Positions 369 through 62,837 of a stretch of 64,000 nt of DNA are shown one piece after another. The notes below the pieces were generated by a model. The model was not told where the DNA came from, ran no database searches, and saw nothing but the letters and a program-made list of their open reading frames with translations. Source of the stretch: Sialis fuliginosa. Its lineage: Eukaryota > Arthropoda > Insecta > Megaloptera > Sialidae. Both the position numbers and the translations under genes were made by a program. The number at the start of each line of letters is the position of its first letter. The stretch's first letter is position 1. The stretch lies in the NCBI GenBank assembly GCA_961205875.1, contig OY540812.1, forward strand, positions 29,955,098-30,019,097. Direction: 5' to 3'.

Positions 369-1451
369 TAGGTGGCAGAGTGGTCACTGACCATAGCGAA
401 TATATATTTTGTTACGTTAGGTAATATAAGGAATAAGCAGTGACGATAATAGTAAATCAAGTCGGAAAAAAGTTTGCCGCTAGCGCGTTCTTTTGCAGTA
501 TGCTGACTTAACCGTTAAATATTGTATAATATAATATAGTAAAGAATTGAATAAAAAGGCCTAAAATAAACATCGCGATACCATAGATCTAACTTTTATA
601 TTTAAGCGAGCGAAAATTGTATATTTTGATCTAGTAAAAAAAACTCTAAAGTTGTTGGTTTCCAAGTAAAACATTCTTGAAAGTTCAAAATCTCTCTCTA
701 TTTTGTTGAATGTCTTAAAAAGTCGTAACAAAAAATTCCAACGAACGTTGTTTCTTTTTTCACGAAGAATACGATTCAGCAATAAATAATAGGGGCTCCT
801 ATTAAAAAAAAAAGATAACTAATCATCTGATACTCTTTTTTACACCTTTCAACTTTTGACTGAAACGTTTTTATCTATCTTTGTTTTTGAAATATAAGCC
901 TGAGGCGTTTAAAATAAGAGACTATATTGCTATATGCATATATTTTTTTAAATATTAATTTTGACGTGAGTCAAATCTTATTACGTTCTTCTTGATGTTC
1001 TCTTTCAGAATTTATAAGAATATTTACTTTAATCAAGTTTTTGAGTGGAGCAATTCCTTTCTGAATATCGGTATCTGTTAAATTCTCACGAATCTTTTTT
1101 CTGTTTTATTGTCACGTTTAAACTCAGCGCATTGTATGAATATATTTTCTTGATATATAAATCTGCAGGTTCTGTCTCAGTAGTGTTACGAAGATTTTTG
1201 TAGGGGGGTGAATTTTTTTACATATGTATAACACATATCTATATTATATGATCAGGGGCCACCACGGCAGCGTTAAACTGTTTTATTTATTTGATTCTAA
1301 CTTGAAGATCTTACACTTACTACTTTAGATTTTAATGACGTCTTTTTTTACAAATTTAACACTTATTACTAATTTTGATTGAAATTACCTTTTTTTTTCG
1401 TTGCCAATTGAATTTTACATTTATTATTAATTAAAATTAGTACATTTAATA
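369..1451. other. Unassigned AT-rich stretch
   Basis: No gene, RNA or complete transposon was recognised. The part after 385 contains TTTTGTTACGTTAG, which resembles the terminal sequence of the inverted-repeat element at 41487-42041. Otherwise the sequence is low-complexity AT. Confidence 0.4.
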
Positions 1452-2260
1452 TCTTCCTATATTAACATACATACTGGAAGAATAAATACAAACAAAACCT
1501 AATATTGAACTAATTTAAAATAAATCTTAATACTTGACTTTATGAAGAACGTTTTCAGACCTTTCCGAAGTTTATGAGATTAGTAATTTTTTTTGGCATT
1601 TATTTTCATATACAGCCAGTTATTTACGTCACTATGCCACTACCAGACATGGATGACTGGGGGGATCGGGAAGTGCCTTGGGGCAATCAGGGCAGAGATT
1701 GGTAATTTCAGTGTACCATATCGCCAAACACAAGACTCGAATCCAAGTATGTATGAACATATATTATATATTTACCGTAACGTATTTAGATATTGCAATG
1801 CTTTCGTAAAATGACTATATCTAGTGAACTAAAAGTCCGATTTACCCCATTTTTAATTTTTTTAAAAGACAATTAAATGTACTACAATCAATTATAATAC
1901 ATTCTTGGTCATAAAAAACTTTATACCTATCAAAAAGGCTGTCGAACTCAAAATTTTACATTTTTAAAGTAAAATTTTTAGTTTGACCACCATTTTGAAA
2001 GGTATACAATTATTTTTGGTTAAAATAATGATAAAAAGGTTGTAGATAATTTAATTATCTGTTTAAAATGTGAAAGACGGGGTTGATTGAACATTCCGTT
2101 CGTTAGATACAGAGTGTTTACAAAATCCTTGTAAAACAAAACTTTGGGCTCTTGGTTGAGGGTGTTCCGGAGCAAATTTTGCTAGGGAGTTTTCAGGAAA
2201 TACACATCTGGACATGTTCTAATCACTGTTTAAATTTGGTACTTCATACATTTACTTGGT
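1452..2260. repeat. Single copy of the ~720 bp unit that builds the 55-59 kb palindrome
   Basis: The sequence matches the right palindrome arm (58730-59370) in the same orientation over its length, including the run from the TACTGGAAGAATAAATAC region, through CATTTTGAAAGGTATACAAT, to TTGCTAGGGAGTTTTCAGG. Similarity continues a little past the palindrome edge (TTTATTTC-TGG near 2270 and 59412), so the family is slightly longer than the mirrored part. A ~106 bp insertion interrupts it at 1590-1695. Confidence 0.8.
1590..1695 (-). mobile_element. 5'-truncated retroelement tail inserted in the repeat
   Basis: Compared with the uninterrupted copies at 58841 and 55900, an extra ~106 bp is present, flanked by a 13-bp near-direct repeat (AGATTAGTAATTT and AGATTGGTAATTT). 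The insert starts with a run of T, as expected for a minus-strand poly(A) tail. Its interior (TTTTCATATACAGCCAGTTA, GGGGCAATCAGGGCAG) is related to 33598-33700. A variable-length duplication plus a poly(A)-like end suggests a LINE or SINE 3' end; the family is not identified. Confidence 0.6.
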
Positions 2261-2620
2261 ATTTTTTTCTTTATTTCTTGGACTGTAATTGATAATAATT
2301 AAACTTAACACTTTTTACCACAAAAATAATAGAAAACATATATTGTAAATACAAACATAGCACGTGATCCTCGTGGTGTAGTCTATGGAGCTTAGTGATA
2401 CTAACAACAATTTGAATTAATTCGTTCGGATAGTTTCGATGGAACAAATATTGTCCGTTTCATGAACTATCCGTTTCAATGTTTATCTCACCGACCTACC
2501 AACCAAAAAAACTTTTTAAAAATTTGAAAATTTTTACAGGTAAGTGAAAACTTTCACTGAAATTGAAATTTATGAAACTTTTCAATTAAAACTTGACAAC
2601 TTTATATCACTATACATATA

Positions 2621-5035: not shown

Positions 5036-5260
5036 GCTTGGTTCTTTTCAATCTTCGGACATGGTGCTGATTGTCTAGCAACCGAAGAACCTCTGGATTG
5101 GCATGAAGGCGGAGCCTGGCTTCATGCTTGCTAGTAACAAACATGATGTACCTACCCAATACTGCATTTTTATACTTGCGATTTATATTACTTTCTCCTG
5201 AGGTATAATAACCCGGCTCCGACACCGGTTTTGTCGGTATGTGGAAAAACGCCCTAAAGG
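5036..5260. mobile_element. One-sided remnant of a Harbinger-like element
   Basis: The right end (GTCGGTATGTGGAAAAACGCC followed by CTAA) matches the terminal inverted repeat of the complete 287-bp element at 35389-35675. The left end appears lost or displaced next to the hAT MITE at 4702-5027. The minus strand has an open frame across this interval (to 5225), but it runs on into the MITE and matches no known domain, so it is not called a gene. Confidence 0.55.
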
Positions 5261-5648
5261 TTCCTAGTTTTCTAGCGGATTCTTAAATCGCGAGTTTTCG
5301 ATCCATTATGTAGCACATTGTATACAATATGTTGACATTTTTAAACAGGTTTCGTATTGATTAACAATACCGCCATTCTAATCATAAAATACCATCTGTT
5401 ACTCGCGACCGTTCGCGTGGAATACAGGTTAGGTAATTTAGATTTCTGTTATGATAGTCGATAAAACAGGTTTTTAGTTTCGCATTTGTACGCTAGAATT
5501 TTACGCCAAAAAAGTATATCCTAGTGTGCGTACAAATATCACACATCCATTTTTTATCTAATGAAGGATGAGGTTTCTGACTCTAAGGCGCTACATTATC
5601 TTAACTATTTATATGTGAGGTAAAGCCATTGTGATATTTAGAAATACA

Positions 5649-6219
5649 TAAGGTAGTGGCACCAGTCTTGGCAAAGACCAGTAATGGCAACTTTTTAAAT
5701 AAATGTACTGAATTTGAAATATGTGTTCATATTTGATTACTACCATTTCTGAATATTAATCTATATAATTTAACTGTCTTACAGCGTGATTTGATGATAA
5801 TCGGCCAATAGGTGTCAAAATGGTGAACATTTAAACTAATTATTAGTATAATTTATTTATTAATTATTATATTATCATAGAAACAGCTTTACATTGTTTC
5901 AAATTTGACGATTCTTTCTTTTGTATCTTTTATGCCGTAGTACTTATCATTTTGTAATCATTAGCAAGTGTCCATCACTGCGTGCTCATTACTGATTTTA
6001 CTTTATCCATTACTGGAGAAAATACATAAACAAAATAAAAGGCTATACCTAAAAAAAAACTATATTTGCGGACTTTGGTAATTAAATTGATTAAATAAAA
6101 AGTTACTTATTTTATTAGTATCATGAGTTCATGAGAGTTACAAAAAAGAAACCCGTCAATCACAAAAACAGTAAACCGCTAAATGCAATATAGCGGCCAC
6201 AACGCGTTCCAGTACCTTA
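5649..6219. mobile_element. Dispersed repeat family R, complete copy
   Basis: The ends are inverted: TAAGGTAGTGGCACCAGTC at the left and GTTCCAGTACCTTA at the right. The interior (TTTCTGAATATTAATCTATA, CATCGGCCAATAGGTGTC-like motif, CATCACTGCGTGCTCATTAC, TATTTGCGGACTTTGGTAA) recurs at 28750-30602, 33523-34303, 34750-35317 and 50985-53420. It is about 570 bp with no coding capacity, so a MITE-type element is likely. No clear target duplication was found. Confidence 0.75.
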
Positions 6220-6235
6220 TTTAAATTTTTAACCA

Positions 6236-6415
6236 TTTTTAGGGCCAAAGACCCACCTTATGGACCCTCATTCTTTTTCGTGAAACAGAATAACAAGCTA
6301 TCTCCTTGCCAAATTACATCAAGCTTGGTTCAGCGGTTTAGCCATGAAAAGATAACAAACAGACAGACGGACAGAAAGTTAAAGACACTTTCGCATTTAT
6401 AATATTAGTATGGAT
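6236..6415 (+). mobile_element. 3' tail of an RTE-like LINE
   Basis: The run CCAAATT-ACATCAAGCTTGGTTCAGCG, then TTTAGCCATGAAAAG, a short ACAGACAGACGGACAGA repeat and the terminal TTTATAATATTAGTATGG is a pattern known from insect RTE-type retrotransposon tails. Only the 3' end is present; no reverse-transcriptase frame is nearby. Confidence 0.5.
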
Positions 6416-6794
6416 TTAATATATACTTCAGATCGTGGTGGGGTGGGGGGGGGGAAGGTACCGCATCTAGTGCCTTTCAAGGAGCCGCTTATGACACATA
6501 ATTACATTTATTATAAATGGTACCCGTCTTTAGTGGTGTCATTAGTGAAGGTGGTAGCAAAGCACGCGGATACAGATCTAAAAGCCGTCACATTCTGGTT
6601 ATTTCCACTCAAGTTTAGTGAGATTATCGCTGTGCTGTAACCACGCAGCGTCCTAGGCTGTCTTTAAATCTTCCATAATCTGCTTTGTTTAATACATTGT
6701 TATTCAGGATGTGAAATTTTGCTTGGATTACCACTTGTGAAATATTTTATAAACATGGAACATTTTTATAGTATGTTCAAAGTTCAAAGGTATT

Positions 6795-7035
6795 TTGATA
6801 TTAACCGACTTCAAAAAAAGGAGGAGGTTCTCAATTCAACTCGTATATACATATATTTATATATATATGTTCATATTTTAGCCATGTTGACGCTTAATTT
6901 CGTATTACGTGGATATTTTGATAATTTTTTGTTATTAATCTTATTATAGGGTTTTACAAAAGACTAGGGCTGCAAGTCGAAACGAGTCTCGTATCGGGCT
7001 TGAAACGAGACTGATACGATAATGCACTCATTAAA
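6795..7035. repeat. accgacttc-type repeat and GTCTCG-rich fragment
   Basis: AACCGACTTCAAAAAAAGGA near 6803 begins a common insect dispersed repeat, also present near 10082 and 28014. From about 6963 the sequence carries short CGAGTCTCG / GAAACGAGAC motifs, similar in style to 15040-15110. Neither is coding. Confidence 0.4.
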
Positions 7036-7700
7036 GAAATTAAAAGCAAAAAATTCAAATTTTTAAACTGTAATATCTCCGCGAAAAATGATTAATTTGC
7101 AAAATTCAAAGCTTATTCAAAAACTTGCACTTTCTAGTTTGTTTTTTAGTCTAAAGCTCAAACTTTTCATCCCCTGCCACTCTGTGCCAAGAGTTAAGAG
7201 TTTGAAAAAGTATCCCTTAATTATTTATAAACTTTGAAAGCGTCAATGGGGTGAAAAATATTTTGAACGAGAAATTCAATGTAAGCGTTCGAAAACTTGA
7301 TCTTTTTTTTGAAAATGCTTTTTTTCCTTTCTATAAAATTTCATTGACCCCGTTATTTATTGTGTCAAAGTAAAATTAACAATTTTGACTATAAACTCCT
7401 ATATAACATGAAATAATGATCGCACAATAATAGACTTGACATCATTAGAAAGCTGTACTTAAGTGTTCTTTTGAAATTCTTTGAATTCAAATGAAATGGA
7501 ACTGTTTTTTTTTTGCCGAGAGTGATATGAATTTTTAAGGGATTGTCTATAATTTAGTTTAAAAAAATCTCTAATTATTACTAAAAATAGAATTTTTAGA
7601 AAAACAAAATGTTTCTCGAATTCAGTCACGTCTGCGTTTATAAAGCGAAATCAAAAAAGATTAGAGGCACACTGTGCCGCAACTAACAAACGTAAAACGT
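7036..7700. other. Unassigned AT-rich stretch
   Basis: No gene or recognised element. It consists of AT-rich sequence with homopolymer runs. Confidence 0.4.
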
Positions 7701-7704
7701 GTTA

Positions 7705-8560
7705 CTTTTTACTTTCTTATACCTACCCATATATATGAAATATACATACATATAGTATAAGTACATTTGTAAAACCGATTTTTTTCGAAATTCGGATTTT
7801 GATGGAATTATTTATTTTGACCTTCCTTGAATCCAATCTGATTATTTTCGTCATGTCTGTGTGTCTGTCTGTCTGTAAGCGCTGTAACTCAAATACGACA
7901 AATCGTAGAAGGGTGAAATTTTATATTTAAGATTAATTTTTATCTGGGAAGAGAACCTCATATTTTTGAAAACGATCTTTCAACCGGATATGGATGTTTA
8001 CTAACGTTGATTTTTTAATTTTTCGAAGTACTTTGAAATAGTGCGAATAAGAGAAAAAATGGCAAGTTAAAAATTGTAGGTAATATTATTATCTATAATT
8101 TATGTTCTATTCATTTTTTTTCGAAAAACAATTAAAAAAAAAATTATAATCCAAATGGTTCATAACAGAGAAGAAATATCTGCCATTCTTATACATATGA
8201 CAGAGATTCAACAGTGTGTGTGTTTGCCATAGGTACCATGTGACTTTCTTATATGTAATACTAAATAATTTTTTTTTTATTTCTGACAAAATCATGTTAG
8301 AAAAAATGTATGGGGAATAAATTATAGATAATAACATACTCGACTTTTTTTAACGTAAACATTTTTTTCTTATTTCAAAAATAATTTGAAAATTCAAAAA
8401 TTAACTAGAGTAAACATCCGTTTTCGGTTTCGCATTGATTTTATTCTATCCTTTATTAGTTTGTCAGAAATATATTATAATCACGTATAATATTCACTGT
8501 CAGGATTACACATAAGAAAATCCTGTGGCTCCCATGGCAGATATTTTATTATAGAAAATA
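7705..8560. mobile_element. Dispersed repeat family S, copy 1
   Basis: It shares long stretches with 51147-52103: TTACTTTCTTATACC at the left, TGTCTGTGTGTCTGTCTGTC, GCTGTAACTCAAATACGACA, ATCTTTCAACCGGATA, ATCTATAATTTATGTTCTAT and, at the right, an inverted relative of the start (AAGAAAATCCTGTGGCTCCC). A partial relative lies at 15510-15880. The open frame at 8107-8337 lies inside the repeat and is not a gene. Confidence 0.65.
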
Positions 8561-15120: not shown

Positions 15121-15509
15121 GTCTTTCTCACGTGCAGTTCTTTTCAAAATAAACTTATAATGCACGCCACTGCTGTGTTTATTTTGTTATTTAGTGTAGC
15201 TAAATATTTTCATTGGATTAATTTTTATGACGCTAGGCGCGAAAATACGATTTAATTAAATCAGTTTTGTTAATAAAAGGGGGAACTAATAATTGTATTC
15301 GTAAATACGGGGTAAAATAAGTTAGGCATGTGTATATAAGATAAATATCATGTACATACATATTTTTTTAATGCTACTAGAAATTTAAATTTGTATTTTA
15401 TGATGTTTTGTAAAATAAACTGCCCAGGTCACAATGGTTTCTTATTTGTTTGATATTTCAACAGTTCGACACTTTTTATATATTTAATTGACAGTTGGAA
15501 GAAAAAATG

Positions 15510-15880
15510 CTTTTAATTTCATAGGTAACTAGATTATTCAAACATATTATTATAAAATTATTATTTTTTGGTAAATTCAAAAAAGATGCAAAAAAAAGAA
15601 TAGAACATAAATTATAGATAATAATATTCTCTATAACTTGTATCTAAAATATTTTTTCTAATACGTACCGTTTAAAAAAGAATGCAAAAAATTCAAATTT
15701 CTTAAAAAAAAAATTTTGGGGGGAAAAATGAACAGAACATAAATTATAGATAAGAGCATTTTCTAGAACTTTAATCTAAAACATTTTTTTCTACTGCGCA
15801 CCGTTTCTAAAATAATTCGAAAAATTGACATCAGTAAACATCCGTTTCCGGTTTAGTGATGATTTTAAAAAATAGGAGGT
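15510..15880. repeat. Partial relative of family S
   Basis: ACATAAATTATAGATAATAA occurs twice (near 15604 and 15732), followed by GTAAACATCCGTTTCCGG, both shared with the right part of family S (8315-8420 and 51825-51935). It is non-coding. Confidence 0.5.
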
Positions 15881-17489: not shown

Positions 17490-18737
17490 TTAATTTTGTC
17501 CATTCAAATGAGTCTTACGTTTAAAACTCTGTTCACATTGGTCACATTTAAAAGGTCGTTTATTAGAATGGGTTAATTTATGTCCATTCAAATTTCTTTT
17601 TTGTTTAAAACTTTGTTCACATTGGTCGCATTTAAAAGATCGTTTATTAGAATGGGTTAATTTATGTTCATTCAAATGAGTCTTACGTTTAAAACTCTGT
17701 TCACACTTGTCGCATTTAAAAGGTCGTTTATTAGAATGGGTTAATTTATGTGAAGTCAAATAACTTTTTTGTTTACAACTATATTCACATTGGTCGCATT
17801 TAAAAGGTCGTTTATTAGAATGTGTTAATTTATGTTCATTCAAAGCTCTTTTTTGGTTACTACTATGTTCACATTGGTCGCATTTAAAAGATCGTTTATT
17901 AGAATGGATTAATTTATGTTCATTCAAATGAGTCTTACGTTTAAAACTCTTTTCACACTTGTCGCATTTAAAAGATCGTTTATTAGAATGGGTTAATTTA
18001 TGTAAAGTCAAATAACTTTTTTGTTTACAACTATATTCACATTGGTCGCATTTAAAAGGTCGTTTATTAGAATGGGTTAATTTATGTGAAGCCAAATCTC
18101 TTTTTTGGTTACTACTATGTTCACATTGGTCGCATTTAAAAGGTCGTTTATTAGAATGTGTTAATTTATGTTCATTCAAATGAGTCTTACGTTTAAAACT
18201 CTGTTCACATTGGTCACATTTAAAAGATCGTTTATTAGAATGGGTTAATTTATGTGAAGTCAAATAACTTTTTTGTTTACAACTATATTCACATTGGTCG
18301 CATTTAAAAGGTCGTTTATTAGAATGGGTTAATTTATGTGAATCCAAATGACTTTTTTGTTCACAACTATATTCACAGTGATCGCATTTAAAAGGTCGTT
18401 TATTAGAATGTGTTAATTTATGTCCATCCAAATGAGTCTTACGTTTAAAACTCTGTTCACACTTGTCGCATTTAAATGGTCGTTGACCAGTATGTATTAA
18501 TAGATGCTGTAGTAAATTACATCTACGTTTAAAGTCTTTCATGCATAAATAACATTTATATTTGTTCAAATTCACACTCTGGATAGTAGATCTTGACTTA
18601 TAGTTAATTGTTTTATTACCATTGCTTGAATTTAAATATTTATCACTGTTATTTGTTTCTTCACTAAAATAATTTTCTTCGTGATTATTTGTAATGCCGG
18701 TGTCTGTCAGATTTTCTTCTTTAACTTCCGAATCTCC
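17490..18737 (-). CDS. C2H2 zinc-finger protein, exon 2 (finger array)
   Basis: Exon 2 starts after a CAG acceptor (18738-18740) in phase 0, matching exon 1 at 23175-23276. It begins with about 55 acidic, Asn/Glu-rich residues (GDSEVKEENLTDTG...), then one canonical finger with a TGQRPF linker. Eleven intact 28-residue fingers of the form FKCDxCExSxxxKxxLxxHKLTH follow, and finger 13 loses its histidines by frameshift. Linkers read HSNKRPF or HSNKRSF instead of the usual TGEKPF. Contact positions -1/2/3 fall into few classes (R-T-H, Q-S-Y, Q-R-D/A/N), and fingers 5-13 follow a repeating three-class order. A nuclear, sequence-specific DNA-binding role is expected from the family; the target is unknown. 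The unrearranged frame and intact splice sites suggest a functional gene. Confidence 0.92.
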   Translation of the reverse strand, partial: GDSEVKEENLTDTGITNNHEENYFSEETNNSDKYLNSSNGNKTINYKSRSTIQSVNLNKYKCYLCMKDFKRRCNLLQHLLIHTGQRPFKCDKCEQSFKRKTHLDGHKLTHSNKRPFKCDHCEYSCEQKSHLDSHKLTHSNKRPFKCDQCEYSCKQKSYLTSHKLTHSNKRSFKCDQCEQSFKRKTHLNEHKLTHSNKRPFKCDQCEHSSNQKRDLASHKLTHSNKRPFKCDQCEYSCKQKSYLTLHKLTHSNKRSFKCDKCEKSFKRKTHLNEHKLIHSNKRSFKCDQCEHSSNQKRALNEHKLTHSNKRPFKCDQCEYSCKQKSYLTSHKLTHSNKRPFKCDKCEQSFKRKTHLNEHKLTHSNKRSFKCDQCEQSFKQKRNLNGHKLTHSNKRPFKCDQCEQSFKRKTHLNGQN

Positions 18738-28845: not shown

Positions 28846-28978
28846 AAAAATTTGGATGTTCGCTTTTATATGTCGTTTTTTTGGTATCGCACACCTTTTT
28901 TTTGTATGTGGCTGTGTAATTCATGAACAGACAGACGAATTTTCGATTCAGGGAGTCTCAGTTAATTTTCGAGGCCTC

Positions 28979-30045
28979 CTTCGGCTATAATTAAGAAATT
29001 AAAATTGATAATTTAACATATAAGTTGAATAGTTAATATGTCAGCTTGGTGCGATCGAGCAGACTCCAGTTTTTTTTTTAAATATAGCTTACACCATTAT
29101 CTTTAAGACTATCTAATGCCCTAAGACCTTCGAGACCGCCTTTGGCTGTTATTAAGAAACTTAAATTGAAAATTTTACAAATAAGTTGAATAGTTAATAA
29201 GTCAGCTTGGCACGATCGAGCAGACTCTAGTTTTTTTTTTAAATATAGCTTACACCATTATCTTTAAGACTAACTAATGCCCGAAGACCTTCGAAACCGT
29301 CTTCGGCTATTATTAAGAAATTTAAATTGAAAATTTAACAAATAAGTTGAATAGTTAATATGTCAGCTTGGCGCAATCGAGCAAACTCCAGTTTTTTTTT
29401 AAATATAGCTTACACCATTATCTTTAAGACTATCTAATGCCCGAAGACCTTCGAAACCGTCTTCGGCTATTATTAAGAAATTTAAATTGAAAATTTAACA
29501 AATAAGTTGAATAGTTAATATGTCAGCTTGGCGCAATCGAGCAAACTCCAGTTTTTTTTTAAATATAGCTTACACCATTATCTTTAAGACTATCTAATGC
29601 CCTAAGACCTTCGAGACCGCCTTCGGCTATTATTAAGAAATTTAAATTGAAAATTTTACAAATAAGTTGAATAGTTAATATGTCAGCTTGGCGCGATCGA
29701 GCAGACTCCAGTTTTTTTTTTTAATATAGCTTACACCATTATCTTTAAGACTATCTAATGCCCGAAGACCTTCGAAACCGCCTTCGGCTATTATTAAGAA
29801 ATTTAAATTGAAAATTTTACAAATAAGTTGAATAGTTAATATGTCAGCTTGGCGCGATCGAGCAGACTCTAGTTTTTTTTAAATATAGCTTACACCATTA
29901 TCTTTAAGACTATTTAATGCCCGAAGACCGTCGAGACCGCCTTCGGCTATTATTAAGAAATTAAAATTGATAATTTAACAAATAAGTTGAATAGTTAATA
30001 TGTCAGCTTGGCACGATCCTACAGATTCCAATAAAAAAATTATTT
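28979..30045. repeat. Tandem array of seven ~160 bp units
   Basis: The word CTTCGGCTATTATTAAG, or a near variant, begins at 28979, 29140, 29301, 29461, 29621, 29782 and 29941, so spacings are 159-161 bases. Each unit contains ACAAATAAGTTGAATAGTTAA, GTCAGCTTGGCGC, GATCGAGCAGACTCCAG, a T-run, AATATAGCTTACACCATTAT and GCCCGAAGACCTTCG. Units differ by a few percent. The first and last units are the most diverged. There is no coding frame. Confidence 0.95.
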
Positions 30046-55265: not shown

Positions 55266-55353
55266 CTACTAAATTCAAATTGTCAAATTAATTATCTACG
55301 AATGTATATTATTAGTCCAGGCAACGTAGAATTTTTTACTGGTGTAAAATTAG

Positions 55354-58300
55354 GAAAAATGTATGAGGTGCCAAATTTAAACAGTGATTAGAACATGTCC
55401 AGATGTATATTTCCTGAAAACTCCCTAGCAAAATTTGCTCCGGAACACCCTCAACCAAGGGCCCAAAGTTTTGTTTTACAAGGATTTTGTAAACACTCTG
55501 TATCTAAGGAACGGAATGTTCAATCAACCCCGTTTTTCGCATTTTAAACAGATAATTAAATTATCTACAACCTTTTTTATTATTATTTTAACCAAAAATA
55601 ATTGTATACCTTTCAAAATGGTGGTCAAACTAAAAATTTTACTTTAAAAATGTAAAATTTTGAGTTCGACAGCCTTTTTGATAGGTATAAAGTTATTTAT
55701 GACCAAGAATGTGTTATAATTGATTGTAGTACATTTAATTGTCTTTTAAAAAAAACAAAAATGGGGTAAATCGGACTTTTAGTTCACTAGATATAGTCAT
55801 TTTACGAAAGCATTGCAATGTCTAAATACGTTACGGTAAATATGTTCATACATACTTGGATTCGAGTCTTGTGTTTGGCGATATGGTACACTGAAATTAC
55901 TAATCTCATAAACTTCGGAAAGGTCTGAAAATGTTCTTCATAAAGTCTAGTATTAAGATTTATTTTAAATTAGTCCAATATTAGGTTTTGTTTGTATTTA
56001 TTCTTCCAGTACGTAATAAAGGAATATGTTAAATGTATAAAGATACATAAAAATTACATTTTTACATTACAATAAAATTTTGAAGTTTAGGATAATGTAT
56101 GAGGCATAAAATTATTAGAGCAATTAGAAATTAACGAGATGTATATTTCTTGAAAACTCCCAAAAAAAGGAGGGCCCGGAACACCCTCAACCAAGGGCCT
56201 AAAGTTTTGTTTAACAAGGATTTTGTAAACACACTATATCTAATGAACGGAATGTTCGATCTACCCCATCATTCGCATTTCAAACAGATAATAAAATTTT
56301 CTACAACCTTTTTTATTATTATTTTAACCAAAAATAATTGTAAACCTTTCAAAATGGCGGTCAAACTAAAAATTCTAATTTTAAAATGATTTTTTTTTAG
56401 TTAGGCAGCCATTTTGAATAACATAAAATCATTTTTGTTAAAACAGTCTTACTGTATATTATTGCACATTTAATTATCTATCCAAAACATGAAATATGGT
56501 GTTAATCTGATTTTCAGATCATTAGTTATAGTAATTTTACGAAACCATTATAATATCTTACATACTTGTGTTTGTGTCTTGTGTTTGACGACATGGTACA
56601 CCGAAATTATTAACCTCATAAACTTCGAAAAAGTCTAAAAATGTTCTTCATAAGGTCTAGTATTAAGATTTATTTTAAATTAGCTCAATAATAGATTTTG
56701 TTCGTATTTATTCTTCCAGTACGTAATATAGGAAGATGTTAAATGTATAGGTACATAAATATTGCTATTTTACATTACAATAAAATTTTGAATTTTAGGA
56801 TAATGTATGAGGTACTAAATTTAGCCAGTGGTTAAAACATACCAAGATGTGTATTTCCTGAAAACTCCCTTGCAAAGTTTACCCCGGAAGACCCTCAACG
56901 AAGAGCCTAAAGTTTTTTTTTTATAAGGATTTTGTAAACACACTATATCTAATGAACGGAATGTTCAATCTACCCCGTTTTTCGCATTTCAAACAGATAA
57001 TAAAATTGTCTACAACTTATTTTATTATTATTTTAATCGAACATAATTGTATACCTTACAAAATAACGGTTAAACAAAAAAAATTACTTTAAAAATAATG
57101 TGTTTTTGAGTTCGAGAGCATTTTTGATAGGTAAACAGTTATTTATGAGCATAAATGTGTCATAATTGATTGTAGTGCATTAAATTGTCTCTCCGAAAAA
57201 TTAAACATGGTGTTAAACGAACTCTTTGTTCACTAGATATATTCTGTCTACGAAACCATTATTTTATCTTATTGTTTTGATTGCATTTATTCTTTCAAAT
57301 GGAAATTATAAATATACAACATTTATAGGTACATAAAAATTTAATATTATTCAACTAATTTAAAATAAATCGTGACACTAGACTCTATGAGGAACATTTT
57401 CTGATATTTCCTAAGTTTATGAGTTTGATAATATCAGTGTACCATGTTGTCAAATATGAGACATAGACACAAGTATATAAGATAAAATAATGGTTTCGTA
57501 GACAGAATATATCTAGTGAACAAAGAGTTCGTTTAACACCATGTTTAATTTTTCGGAGAGACAATTTAATGCACTACAATCAATTATGACACATTTATGC
57601 TCATAAATAACTGTTTACCTATCAAAAATGCTCTCGAACTCAAAAACACATTATTTTTAAAGTAATTTTTTTTGTTTAACCGTTATTTTGTAAGGTATAC
57701 AATTATGTTCGATTAAAATAATAATAAAATAAGTTGTAGACAATTTTATTATCTGTTTGAAATGCGAAAAACGGGGTAGATTGAACATTCCGTTCATTAG
57801 ATATAGTGTGTTTACAAAATCCTTATAAAAAAAAAACTTTAGGCTCTTCGTTGAGGGTCTTCCGGGGTAAACTTTGCAAGGGAGTTTTCAGGAAATACAC
57901 ATCTTGGTATGTTTTAACCACTGGCTAAATTTAGTACCTCATACATTATCCTAAAATTCAAAATTTTATTGTAATGTAAAATAGCAATATTTATGTACCT
58001 ATACATTTAACATCTTCCTATATTACGTACTGGAAGAATAAATACGAACAAAATCTATTATTGAGCTAATTTAAAATAAATCTTAATACTAGACCTTATG
58101 AAGAACATTTTTAGACTTTTTCGAAGTTTATGAGGTTAATAATTTCGGTGTACCATGTCGTCAAACACAAGACACAAACACAAGTATGTAAGATATTATA
58201 ATGGTTTCGTAAAATTACTATAACTAATGATCTGAAAATCAGATTAACACCATATTTCATGTTTTGGATAGATAATTAAATGTGCAATAATATACAGTAA

Positions 58301-59395
58301 GACTGTTTTAACAAAAATGATTTTATGTTATTCAAAATGGCTGCCTAACTAAAAAAAAATCATTTTAAAATTAGAATTTTTAGTTTGACCGCCATTTTGA
58401 AAGGTTTACAATTATTTTTGGTTAAAATAATAATAAAAAAGGTTGTAGAAAATTTTATTATCTGTTTGAAATGCGAATGATGGGGTAGATCGAACATTCC
58501 GTTCATTAGATATAGTGTGTTTACAAAATCCTTGTTAAACAAAACTTTAGGCCCTTGGTTGAGGGTGTTCCGGGCCCTCCTTTTTTTGGGAGTTTTCAAG
58601 AAATATACATCTCGTTAATTTCTAATTGCTCTAATAATTTTATGCCTCATACATTATCCTAAACTTCAAAATTTTATTGTAATGTAAAAATGTAATTTTT
58701 ATGTATCTTTATACATTTAACATATTCCTTTATTACGTACTGGAAGAATAAATACAAACAAAACCTAATATTGGACTAATTTAAAATAAATCTTAATACT
58801 AGACTTTATGAAGAACATTTTCAGACCTTTCCGAAGTTTATGAGATTAGTAATTTCAGTGTACCATATCGCCAAACACAAGACTCGAATCCAAGTATGTA
58901 TGAACATATTTACCGTAACGTATTTAGACATTGCAATGCTTTCGTAAAATGACTATATCTAGTGAACTAAAAGTCCGATTTACCCCATTTTTGTTTTTTT
59001 TAAAAGACAATTAAATGTACTACAATCAATTATAACACATTCTTGGTCATAAATAACTTTATACCTATCAAAAAGGCTGTCGAACTCAAAATTTTACATT
59101 TTTAAAGTAAAATTTTTAGTTTGACCACCATTTTGAAAGGTATACAATTATTTTTGGTTAAAATAATAATAAAAAAGGTTGTAGATAATTTAATTATCTG
59201 TTTAAAATGCGAAAAACGGGGTTGATTGAACATTCCGTTCCTTAGATACAGAGTGTTTACAAAATCCTTGTAAAACAAAACTTTGGGCCCTTGGTTGAGG
59301 GTGTTCCGGAGCAAATTTTGCTAGGGAGTTTTCAGGAAATATACATCTGGACATGTTCTAACCACTGTTTAAATTTGGCACCTCATACATTTTCC
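55354..59395. repeat. Giant palindrome: two ~1.9 kb arms, each three tandem ~720 bp units
   Basis: Every position p in the left arm pairs with 114749-p in the right arm: 55435 with 59314, 56150 with 58599, 57270 with 57479. No net insertion or deletion separates the arms over ~1.9 kb, and only occasional substitutions are seen. The central spacer is 57271-57478. Inside each arm the marker ACCCTCAAC occurs at 55447, 56183 and 56891 (mirrored on the right), giving units of about 736 and 708 bp that are well diverged from one another. Small open frames mirrored in the arms follow from the repeat. A lone unit lies at 1452-2260. Confidence 0.97.
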
Positions 59396-59419
59396 TTGTA
59401 TTTTTTCCTTTATTTCCTG

Positions 59420-60900
59420 GGCTATATGTTTTTGACATTAATATGTTTTTTTATGTATTACGAAATATATATTCATAGTAGTAGGTTATATAAATAAATA
59501 TTTTTTCAAAAAATTTATATTTCAAAATTATTTAAAAAGATAGAAAGAACATGGAAGTAATGTATGGTTCTCCATACGGATATTTACCTATGTGTTAAAC
59601 ACTGATTATTGCAATTTTTTTATTTTTCGATGCTTTTAAACACTTAAAAAACTAAAAATGATTTGAGATTTGATGAATTTGTGCAATCAAGAGTAATTTA
59701 ACGATTATTAAAATTCAATTTTATTTTACTCATAAAAAATCGTGTTTTTAAATATTTTTTTATTTTACAGGAGAAGGCATTTTTAGGAAATACTTTCACT
59801 TATAAAACTAAAAAATAAAAGCAAATTTTGGCAGATACGATAGAAATTTCTGTAATTCTTGATGTTACCAACAATGAATATTTATGAATTAATAAATTAA
59901 AATGATTAGACCCAAGCCTGTTGACATCAAATTTGTGAAAAAAATATTAAATATTAAACATCATTTAAGATAAAATTGTCTTCTCTGAACCTTTTTAGCG
60001 GAAATCTCAGAATTACAAGGATTTACGTAACTAAATTTCAGCAAAATTGTTTTTTACGATATTTCGGCGATAGGGATCGATTTGATAACTCCAGATTATC
60101 CAAAAATAATATAAATTAATGAGGAAACGTAATAAAAAAATGATATCCGGTATTACAAAGAATTTGCTTCGGAGCAAAAGCTCAGCTAACGCTATATTAA
60201 TATTATATTAAATATAAATGACCACCCACTGCCAGTTCTAATCAATGATATGGTTTATATTTTACTAGCGTATTGGACCCGGTGTTTGTTGTAAAATTTT
60301 CTTAAAATAACCCCTGGCCCTTGGTAGATTGCGTTTATGCTATGCGGCCCAAAAGGTTCAAAAGGTTGGACACCTATATCTAGTGTTTCACGCCAGACAC
60401 TGGATGGGTATTTCAGAAACTGCAAACTTGTGTAATACGCTGAGATCAGTTTACGCTCTAGCGTAAATTTATAATCAGTATATCTCGACACTCAGAGCAG
60501 CTACTACACGGGTTTTCATCTTAAATTGTAGATCTCGATTAGAAAAATGAGGTTAAAGTAAAAATCAAAATATTTCACTAATTTTAATGCGTGAAAAACT
60601 TCATATTATAAAAAAAATAATTAAATATTGTATGTCCACGATTGCGTTTGTAAATATTAATTAATTGAATTGAAAAAAAATAAATTAAAGTATATCAGAA
60701 TATATTCTCTATGACCTAACGTTTTTAATTTTTTAAAATAAAATAATGAAATAAAAAGTAAATTTCGTATTTTCACGATTTTGTTTGAAAATATTAATTA
60801 ATTGAATTAAACAAAAAATAACAGTATAAGAATATATTCTCTACGAAGTAACGTTTTAAATTTTTTTTATTACAATTTTTTTAATTCAATAAAAAAATAG
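59420..60900. other. Unassigned stretch with a MITE end
   Basis: At 60149 TCCGGTATTACAAAGAATTT resembles the left end of the 18916 MITE family. The segment 60240-60500 is slightly richer in GC and carries a minus-strand frame without a recognisable domain. Two near-copies of TATTAATTAATTGAAT with AGAATATATTCTCTA (near 60655-60715 and 60790-60845) form a diverged tandem pair. Confidence 0.4.
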
Positions 60901-60907
60901 AAAGTAA

Positions 60908-62837
60908 AGGCTGTAGCCGGGTAGCAATGTAAAATCGGCCTCAACACGGATTTGGCTAATTTTTATTGTGAATGTTGCTCTTTATGTGAGCATTCTTATG
61001 CCCAATTATTAGCCTCCAAAAGTTGATCGTTTTTGAAAAAAAAATTATTTTCAATTTTTCAAAAATATTTTTTTTTAAGAATTTTTTTTTTTATTATGTT
61101 CAAACTATGGTACAATGTAAAAGTTGATATGGTGCATATAAGGTAAAATTTTCAAGAAGCTGCGCATACTCTATCAAATAAAAATTTTTTTTTGAAATTT
61201 TGAAAAAAAAATTTTTTTGGTTGTGGTTGAGCGACAACTTCAGATATTTCATGAAATAATCTTCATACTTTAGTATTACACCCTACCAAGTTTGAAAAGA
61301 ATCGAAGTGGTAGAACATACTTAAAAAAAATTAAAATCAATGGAAGTCAATATTAACATGTACAAATGCTATAGAAATAATGTAATATAAAAATAATATA
61401 AAAATGATATAAAAACAGTTATTTAAATAAAATTAACTCGAAATATTCAATAAAAACCCTTCTGTCTCCCACTGCCCGTTTGTCTTACCGTCTTGAACAT
61501 ATATACATTTCTTATGGTGATATACACATTACACATATAGTCTAGGCCACTTTACACGAAATAGAGTTTCTTTAAATAATTCATATAACAAAACTATTTC
61601 AATATACTTTTTTTTCGTTGTTGGATTGCACTGGAAGAGGAGGTAGGTGAAAATATTTAATTTAATATAAGGGTAGTAAAACTACACGATGGATCACTAA
61701 ATGTGTAATTTTGTATTTAAATAATATTAATATAAATGTATAATAAAATAATATAATGCAATATAATAAAATATAAGGGATGCTTAGGCGCCCCTAAAAA
61801 AACCTTGTACTTAAAAACGAATAATTTTGTTATTTTACATAATTCCACCTCACTTATTATTTTAAAGTTAAAGAAAGACAATAAGAACAGTTGGTGTTAG
61901 ATACTAGGTACATAGAAAGAGTTTAAATTGTATTTTGGGGAGAAAGAAGGCAAATTTTAAATTTCATATAAGGGTAGCATACAAAAACTAAATATGTTAA
62001 TTTTGTTCAAAAGCCTGCCAAAAATAAGAAAATTATTGTTTGGACGCCATATTGGTCGCCATCTTTCATATTGACTTCCGGTCAATGTTTCGGTTTGGTA
62101 ACAGGGATTTTCGGATTCAGCAGGGCCAAAATACTCTTAATAGCTTTGTTTGCAAAATGTTATACCAAGTACTTCAAGAAACCCAATTTCATGTAGTGGC
62201 TTGGACTAAATGTGTATATCACCATAATAAATGTATGTATGTTCAAGACGGTAAGACAAATGGGTAGTGGGAGACAGAAGCGTTTTTATTGAATATTTCG
62301 AGTTAATTTTATTTAAATAACTGTTTTTATATCATTTTTATATTATTTTTATATTACATTATTTCTATAGCATTTGTACATGTTAATATTGACTTCCATT
62401 GATTTTAATTTTTTTTAAGTATGTTCTACCACTTCGATTCTTTTCAAACTTGGTAGGGTGTAATACTAAAGTATGAAGATTATTTCATGAAATATCTGAA
62501 GTTGTCGCTCAACCACAACAAAAAAAAATTTTTTTTTCAAAATTTCAAAAAAAAAAATTTATTTGATAGAGTATGCGCAGCTTCTTGAAAATATTACCTG
62601 ATATGCACCTTATCAACTTCTACATTGTACCATAGTTTGAACTTAATAAAAAAAAAAAATTCTTAAAAAAAAAATATTTTTGAAAAATTGAAAATAATTT
62701 TTTTTTCAAAAACGATCAACTTTTGGAGGCTAATAATTGGGCATAAGAATGCTCACACAAAGAGCAACATTCACAATAAAAATTAGCCAAATCCGTGTTG
62801 AGGCCGATTTTACATTGCTACCCGGCTACAGCCTTTC
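60908..62837. repeat. Long inverted repeat, ~600 bp arms around a ~730 bp core
   Basis: AAGGCTGTAGCCGGGTAGCA, TTAGCCTCCAAAAGTTGATC and CTGTCTCCCACTGCCCGTTT at the left are mirrored by TGCTACCCGGCTACAGCC, GATCAACTTTTGGAGGCTAA and ATGGGTAGTGGGAGACAG at the right. The arms run to about 61505 and from about 62235. The core contains an open frame (62040-62267) with no known domain and CATATTGGTCGCCATCTTTC sequence. A foldback or long-TIR transposon is likely. Confidence 0.9.

Follow-up and report, generated by a model that had tools for sequence, protein, structure and literature searches.

How does a nearly perfect palindrome of about 4 kb arise in an insect genome, and what keeps its two arms alike? 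We analysed such a structure in a window of 64,000 nucleotides from Sialis fuliginosa (the whole stretch of DNA under study, C4:29955098-30019097), using the 392-Mb genome in 20 contigs as the search base.

Structure of the palindrome

The left arm (55356-57272, plus strand) and the right arm (57477-59393, minus strand) are each 1917 bp long and pair without gaps, the right arm mirroring the left with one mismatch (55387 A, 59362 C). Paired positions sum to 114749, and self-alignment of the arms thereby confirmed the register given in the initial annotation, together with its description of a near-perfect palindrome made of tandem units. Three direct units lie in each arm, spaced by ~710 and ~736 bp. 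Pairwise identity of their core parts is 79.8%, 84.3% and 79.8%; the tandem units are therefore clearly diverged, as had been proposed. Within the middle unit lies a further, old inverted repeat (~67% identity over 326 columns).

The spacer reported between the arms is present, although it measures 204 bp (57273-57476) and not the 208 bp given earlier. Positions 57345-57476 are unit sequence in the right-arm orientation and extend the array of the right arm. The preceding ~72 bp (57273-57344) resemble unit sequence in the left-arm orientation, judged by alignment scores against single-base shuffles: in this orientation the score was equalled in 0 of 1000 shuffles for each of two units and in 2 of 1000 for the dispersed copy, whereas for the reverse orientation the corresponding counts were 23, 890 and 544 of 1000. 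By these alignments the spacer is not foreign; it is built of unit sequence.

Further repeats were observed in the window. A second long inverted repeat (60906-62836) has arms of ~680 bp with 94.8% identity and a spacer of ~570 bp, without an evident target duplication on either side, and a tandem array of a 161-bp unit occupies 28978-30018 (6.5 copies, 94% matches). A C2H2 zinc-finger open frame of 361 amino acids (17490-18575) consists of a near-perfect 84-bp tandem array. Ten window ORFs outside the element were searched against Pfam, giving one C2 domain, one zinc-finger array and eight without a match.

Element ends, target site and dispersal

The repeated sequence exceeds the palindrome (55313-59424), because non-palindromic ends flank the arms. 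The whole window element is 4112 bp long with a G+C content of 28%, reads TAGTCCAGG...CCTGGGCTA and has TAT on either side, the left (55310-55312) and right (59425-59427) copies of the target duplication. End A is a single-copy terminal stretch of 43 bp on the plus strand (55313-55355) that starts TAGTCCAGG, and end B is one of 31 bp on the minus strand (59394-59424) that finishes CCTGGGCTA, both lengths being counted from the terminus to the arm with the termini included. Across the family, A starts TAGTCCAGGCAACG and B starts TAGCCCAGGAAATAAAGG, with the shared pattern TAG[TC]CCAGG. The two end sequences are otherwise different; they are alike in their nine terminal bases only, and agree at eight of these.

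A query with the centre of the palindrome (57000-57700) gave 12 full-length genome matches of 96-100% identity and many partial ones. The complete 204-bp spacer occurs in at least 14 genome copies on 8 contigs, and at least 3 partial copies were also found, all counts from genome matching being lower bounds. With 14 whole-spacer copies in the genome, the palindrome is not an assembly accident. We fetched 20 loci, which with the window copy make a set of 21, and both ends and two arms were present in 14 of these (the window copy, L031-L042 and L047). The truncated or rearranged loci L043-L046 and L048-L050 were excluded from all arm counts, as was L032, in which part of one arm is missing, leaving 13 copies; smaller or larger gaps exist in L033, L034, L037, L042 and L047. 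In L044, turned as the palindrome, a second Foldback-like insertion is nested in the family copy at ~5066-8330, with arms of ~1.47 kb (96.6% identity), what looks like a target duplication of 8-9 bp, and short direct repeats towards one end.

The flanks of the copies are unlike one another up to a fixed boundary. An exact 3-bp target duplication borders 21 of the 23 two-ended elements tested (14 palindromic and 9 short), the two without it being L033 and L034; shuffled flanks gave 2.26 such matches on average and never more than 7. In a length scan, flank identity of 4 bp or more was found in 0 of 23. Empty sites were recovered for two copies. For L040, six displayed alignments of related repeats run through the junction and lack the insertion, and four of these show a single AAG; for L041 one related-repeat alignment (window 15432-15826) does likewise, with a single TTT. 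The window insertion site gave a gappy comparison with related repeats, and the empty sites come from L040 and L041. Our first reading, a TA target duplication, was dropped in favour of 3 bp after the empty sites and the length scan.

Arm likeness and gene conversion

Arms differ by a median of 0.37% within a copy versus 1.75% between copies (312 comparisons). The nearest arm was the arm's own partner for 22 of 26 arms, the four exceptions coming from L031, L033 and L037. Within copies, we counted 1 difference in the window copy, 5 in L031, 20 in L033, 14 in L034, 2 in L035, 18 in L036, 12 in L037 (of 1329 sites), 7 in L038, 6 in L039, 19 in L040, 8 in L041, 0 in L042 (of 1406) and 4 in L047, with 1864-1917 sites compared in all copies except L037 and L042. 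In the arm tree, the two arms were sisters in 12 of 13 copies, with weak support in L035 (0.45) and L042 (0.71); those of L033 were not sisters.

The initial annotation had offered two origins for this likeness, a mirror duplication much younger than the tandem array or gene conversion between the arms. The former is contradicted by the family, since the same mirror and spacer are common to copies whose arms are 1.75% apart (median), and the mirror therefore predates the family's spread. The latter is supported by private variants in both arms and by mismatch-free tracts. The 13 copies have 175 copy-private arm variants, of which 84 occur in both arms and 91 are confined to a single arm. Private change in the 12 copies with complete spacer and arms amounts to 0.55% per arm site versus 0.53% in the single-copy spacer (13 of 2448 bases), so that arms and spacer change at an equal pace.

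Long mismatch-free runs were sought in nine copies. L036 has no mismatch in its first 842 bases, all 18 falling in the remainder (P=0.0002), and L038 has a mismatch-free run of 1287 bp (P=0.0024). The signal was weak in L040 (P=0.011) and L033 (P=0.035), and no such run was found in L031, L034, L039 or L041 (P 0.10-0.55); the run in L037 was not counted because a deletion inflates it. One-arm and both-arm variants also occur in blocks, with 47 switches versus 65.5 (P=0.0003, unmerged, 153 variants in 10 nearly complete copies). When same-type neighbours within 5, 10 or 20 bp were merged, P rose to 0.008, 0.039 and 0.13, respectively, and without L036 it was 0.27 at 10-bp merging. The tract evidence for conversion is thus moderate. 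Because the tract tests are strong in few copies and weakened by merging, we grade arm-to-arm gene conversion only as likely, whether before or after insertion, a single genome having been sampled.

Arm mismatches in the family cluster in the inner 117 bp by the spacer (window 57155-57272 and 57477-57593), which hold 23 of 100 in 10 copies. A failure of conversion near the spacer was considered and rejected, the ratio of one-arm to both-arm variants in the inner 240 bp being not significantly different (P=0.10). Private change is also higher near the spacer, so a raised mutation rate accounts equally well for the inner mismatches.

Core orientation

The core occurs in two orientations relative to the ends, split 5 to 9 among the 14 copies. 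Reading all spacers in a single direction places end A at the left in the window copy, L031, L032, L039 and L040, and at the right in L033-L038, L041, L042 and L047, the last assigned from a spacer remnant of 36 bp. On the 13-copy tree, orientation requires at least 3 changes and shuffled labels average 3.6; orientation is therefore not clearly inherited. A crossover between inverted arms flips the core that lies between them. Going beyond the initial annotation, the palindrome belongs to a transposon with defined ends whose core occurs in both orientations.

Short derivatives and dispersed relatives

The end patterns, allowing up to 3 mismatches, are far commoner than the palindrome, with 161 places for A and 111 for B and none for the reversed control. 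Among 20 further sampled loci, eight are short two-ended elements of 287-878 bp (L051-L057 and L059), whose interior passes abruptly from the tip of one arm to that of the other, L053 being more rearranged. From this arrangement the eight look like central-deletion derivatives. A two-ended element of 716 bp with a single unit (L062) was also found. The other 11 loci are compound, or one-ended within the fetched stretch; they include L063 and L067, which also contain short two-ended elements, these two later elements likewise having 3-bp duplications (TAA/TAA in L063; by eye in L067).

Within the window, the dispersed relative noted earlier at 1452-2260 was recovered (1441-2287, plus strand) as a diverged relative that has a single unit and a B-like end. 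Compared with the outermost unit, it is ~92% identical over 1441-1589 and ~95% over 1695-2287. The short insert between these parts (~1590-1694) has a near-repeat of ~14 bp on its flanks and a T-run on one side, and is retroposed-looking.

Search for a coding partner

The longest ATG-started ORF of the window element encodes 50 amino acids. Rfam gave no match, and Pfam searches of five frames of 76-84 amino acids in or overlapping the element gave one meaningless match (E 0.47). A Tc1/mariner partner was rejected, as 12 loci (L075-L086) among the 150 listed PF01359 matches were without an exact TAG[TC]CCAGG end. Among 146 listed matches to PF13359 (PIF/Harbinger), by eye none lies inside an element with TAG[TC]CCAGG ends, and the match nearest to any listed B end is ~1 kb outside that end, on contig C14. 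PF13359 matches are, among those listed, strikingly dense at ~2.3-8.1 Mb of C14 compared with other contigs.

Pairs of convergent ends 1-20 kb apart, searched among 100 of the 161 A places and 100 of the 111 B places, comprised nine palindromic copies and the compound locus L063. One end B faces an end A at a distance of 22.4 kb (G000:C12:5295639-5318086), with arm tips of 148 and 214 bp; the adjoining 3 bp differ (TAA and ATA), which does not support one insertion event. The A-ended loci L064-L066, examined with L071-L073 and with 4 kb added to each, had no B end within ~5 kb and no open frame of 90 amino acids or more in the added sequence. Among the matches and end places listed, the PF01359, PF13359 and end-pair searches found no partner transposase for the foldback family. 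A link to viral contigs was also considered and rejected: a 16-base unit motif matched 22 IMG/VR stretches, and the blastn matches listed were all short and motif-centred, the best of them with E 0.009.

Relation to known transposons

Several features of Foldback elements are present. Long inverted repeats form the bulk of the element (2 x 1917 of 4112 bp), they contain direct sub-repeats (three units per arm), and the copies are dispersed with target duplications (21 of 23 at 3 bp) and empty sites. Inverted repeats reaching the very ends are absent, with 43 and 31 bp of unlike sequence outside the arms, although not all authors demand this of the Foldback-like class. Tc1/mariner elements have a TA target duplication and PIF/Harbinger elements TWA; the duplications here are 3 bp of varied sequence and not TWA. 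Zator has a 3-bp duplication, a size that agrees with the foldback family described here.

Galileo, a Foldback-like member of the P superfamily in Drosophila, is described as having 98-100% identity between the inverted repeats of a copy (PMC3573991), deletion derivatives and a proposed recombination or conversion (PMC3573991, PMC2775673), and 7-bp duplications with the consensus GTAGTAC (PMC2775673). The present family resembles that description in its long, internally repetitive inverted repeats, near-identical within a copy, and in its deletion derivatives. It differs from the reported 7-bp duplications and coding copies in its 3-bp duplication, TAG[TC]CCAGG ends and the lack of any coding copy in our searches, and its arms end 31-43 bp before the termini; a 7-bp duplication was found in 0 of 23 two-ended elements. 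Tetris, a Foldback element of Drosophila virilis, is reported to have tandem units in its inverted repeats, no known transposase, 8-10 bp duplications and 220-bp units with possible unit homogenisation (PMC4079207). The family here shares the tandem units within inverted repeats, but its duplications are 3 bp long and its units, of ~710-736 bp, show no homogenisation. A Mutator-type affinity has been suggested for Tetris; an 8-bp duplication was found in 0 of 23 two-ended elements here. Tm1 of root-knot nematodes is likewise of Foldback type by the title of its report, which assigns it to Mutator (PMC3169594). Chapaev3 (CMC) elements are described with CAC...GTG ends and TWA duplications (PMC4079192), unlike the TAG...CTA ends and the duplications seen here, which include GCT, AAG, TTT and ATC. 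Sex-chromosome palindromes of mammals and willow are reported to be conserved in sequence through gene conversion (PMC7023750); those are gene-bearing chromosomal structures, whereas here a 4-kb mobile element is replicated and no gene was found in it. No family combining such a structure with a 3-bp duplication was recognised in our searches of an open-licence library. By the published descriptions, then, this transposon belongs to a familiar general type, with features combined in an unusual way that set it apart from Galileo and Tetris.

Discussion

The family, with its short ends, 3-bp duplications, dispersal, empty sites, like arms within a copy and two core orientations, is in our view probably a nonautonomous Foldback-like DNA transposon whose arms convert each other and whose core is occasionally flipped by crossover. 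Conversion with occasional crossover is the account that best fits the arms and the orientations. A transposase acting in trans would cut at the ends and insert the element with a 3-base stagger. Pairing between the arms, in a copy or in the source it came from, would let each convert the other, so that a new mutation in one arm would either be lost or spread to its partner. A fraction of these pairings would resolve as crossovers, leaving the core flipped, and elements that lost their centre would become short, MITE-like derivatives. At ~80-84% identity, the tandem units have probably diverged too far for such homogenisation.

It is conceivable, though we think it doubtful, that the arms of this transposon are made identical only during copying, for example by hairpin-primed synthesis or excision-gap repair, and then diverge without conversion. 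The sister arms seen in 12 of 13 copies are what such copying predicts, private variants in both arms could stem from unsampled source copies, and the block test is not significant at 20-bp merging. However, L036 and L038 have mismatch-free tracts beside mismatch-rich stretches, and the long private both-arm stems in most tree copies would demand many separate source lineages. The initial annotation had suggested that a transcript across the spacer might fold into a hairpin and be a source of siRNAs against the dispersed family, which may be so. A further reading takes the palindrome as a hairpin-RNA locus, kept because its folded transcript feeds such siRNAs. Arms of 1917 bp would indeed form a long duplex if transcribed, and dispersed related sequences exist as targets; yet selection of this kind is not needed to explain transposon-type insertions, with their target duplications, at 14 or more scattered places, and the arms change at the spacer rate, giving no sign of constraint, which makes this reading very improbable. 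Foldback artefacts of assembly or sequencing, reported to occur in long reads (PMC12870357), had been a concern at this single locus. An artefact is effectively excluded, its probability being negligible when the identical palindrome and spacer lie at many places with different flanks and copy-specific mutations, and when copies have 3-bp duplications and empty sites.

Returning to the transposon with converting arms, we see an even chance that the family is of an unassigned kind in which conversion and crossover are ongoing at each insertion, the copies correcting themselves. Gene conversion between arms has mostly been discussed for unique sex-chromosome palindromes, and here there are ~14 dispersed replicates in one genome. 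In each copy the single-copy spacer serves as a mutation clock, and the two differing ends are reference points by which flips are revealed, so that conversion relative to mutation, tract length and the share of crossovers are measurable from one assembly plus population reads. The element adds a Foldback-like family with a 3-bp duplication, outside the 7-bp and 8-10-bp duplications in the reports on Galileo and Tetris. If conversion is indeed ongoing at each insertion, the copies would be replicates of one natural experiment in palindrome conversion, with orientation as the crossover counter.
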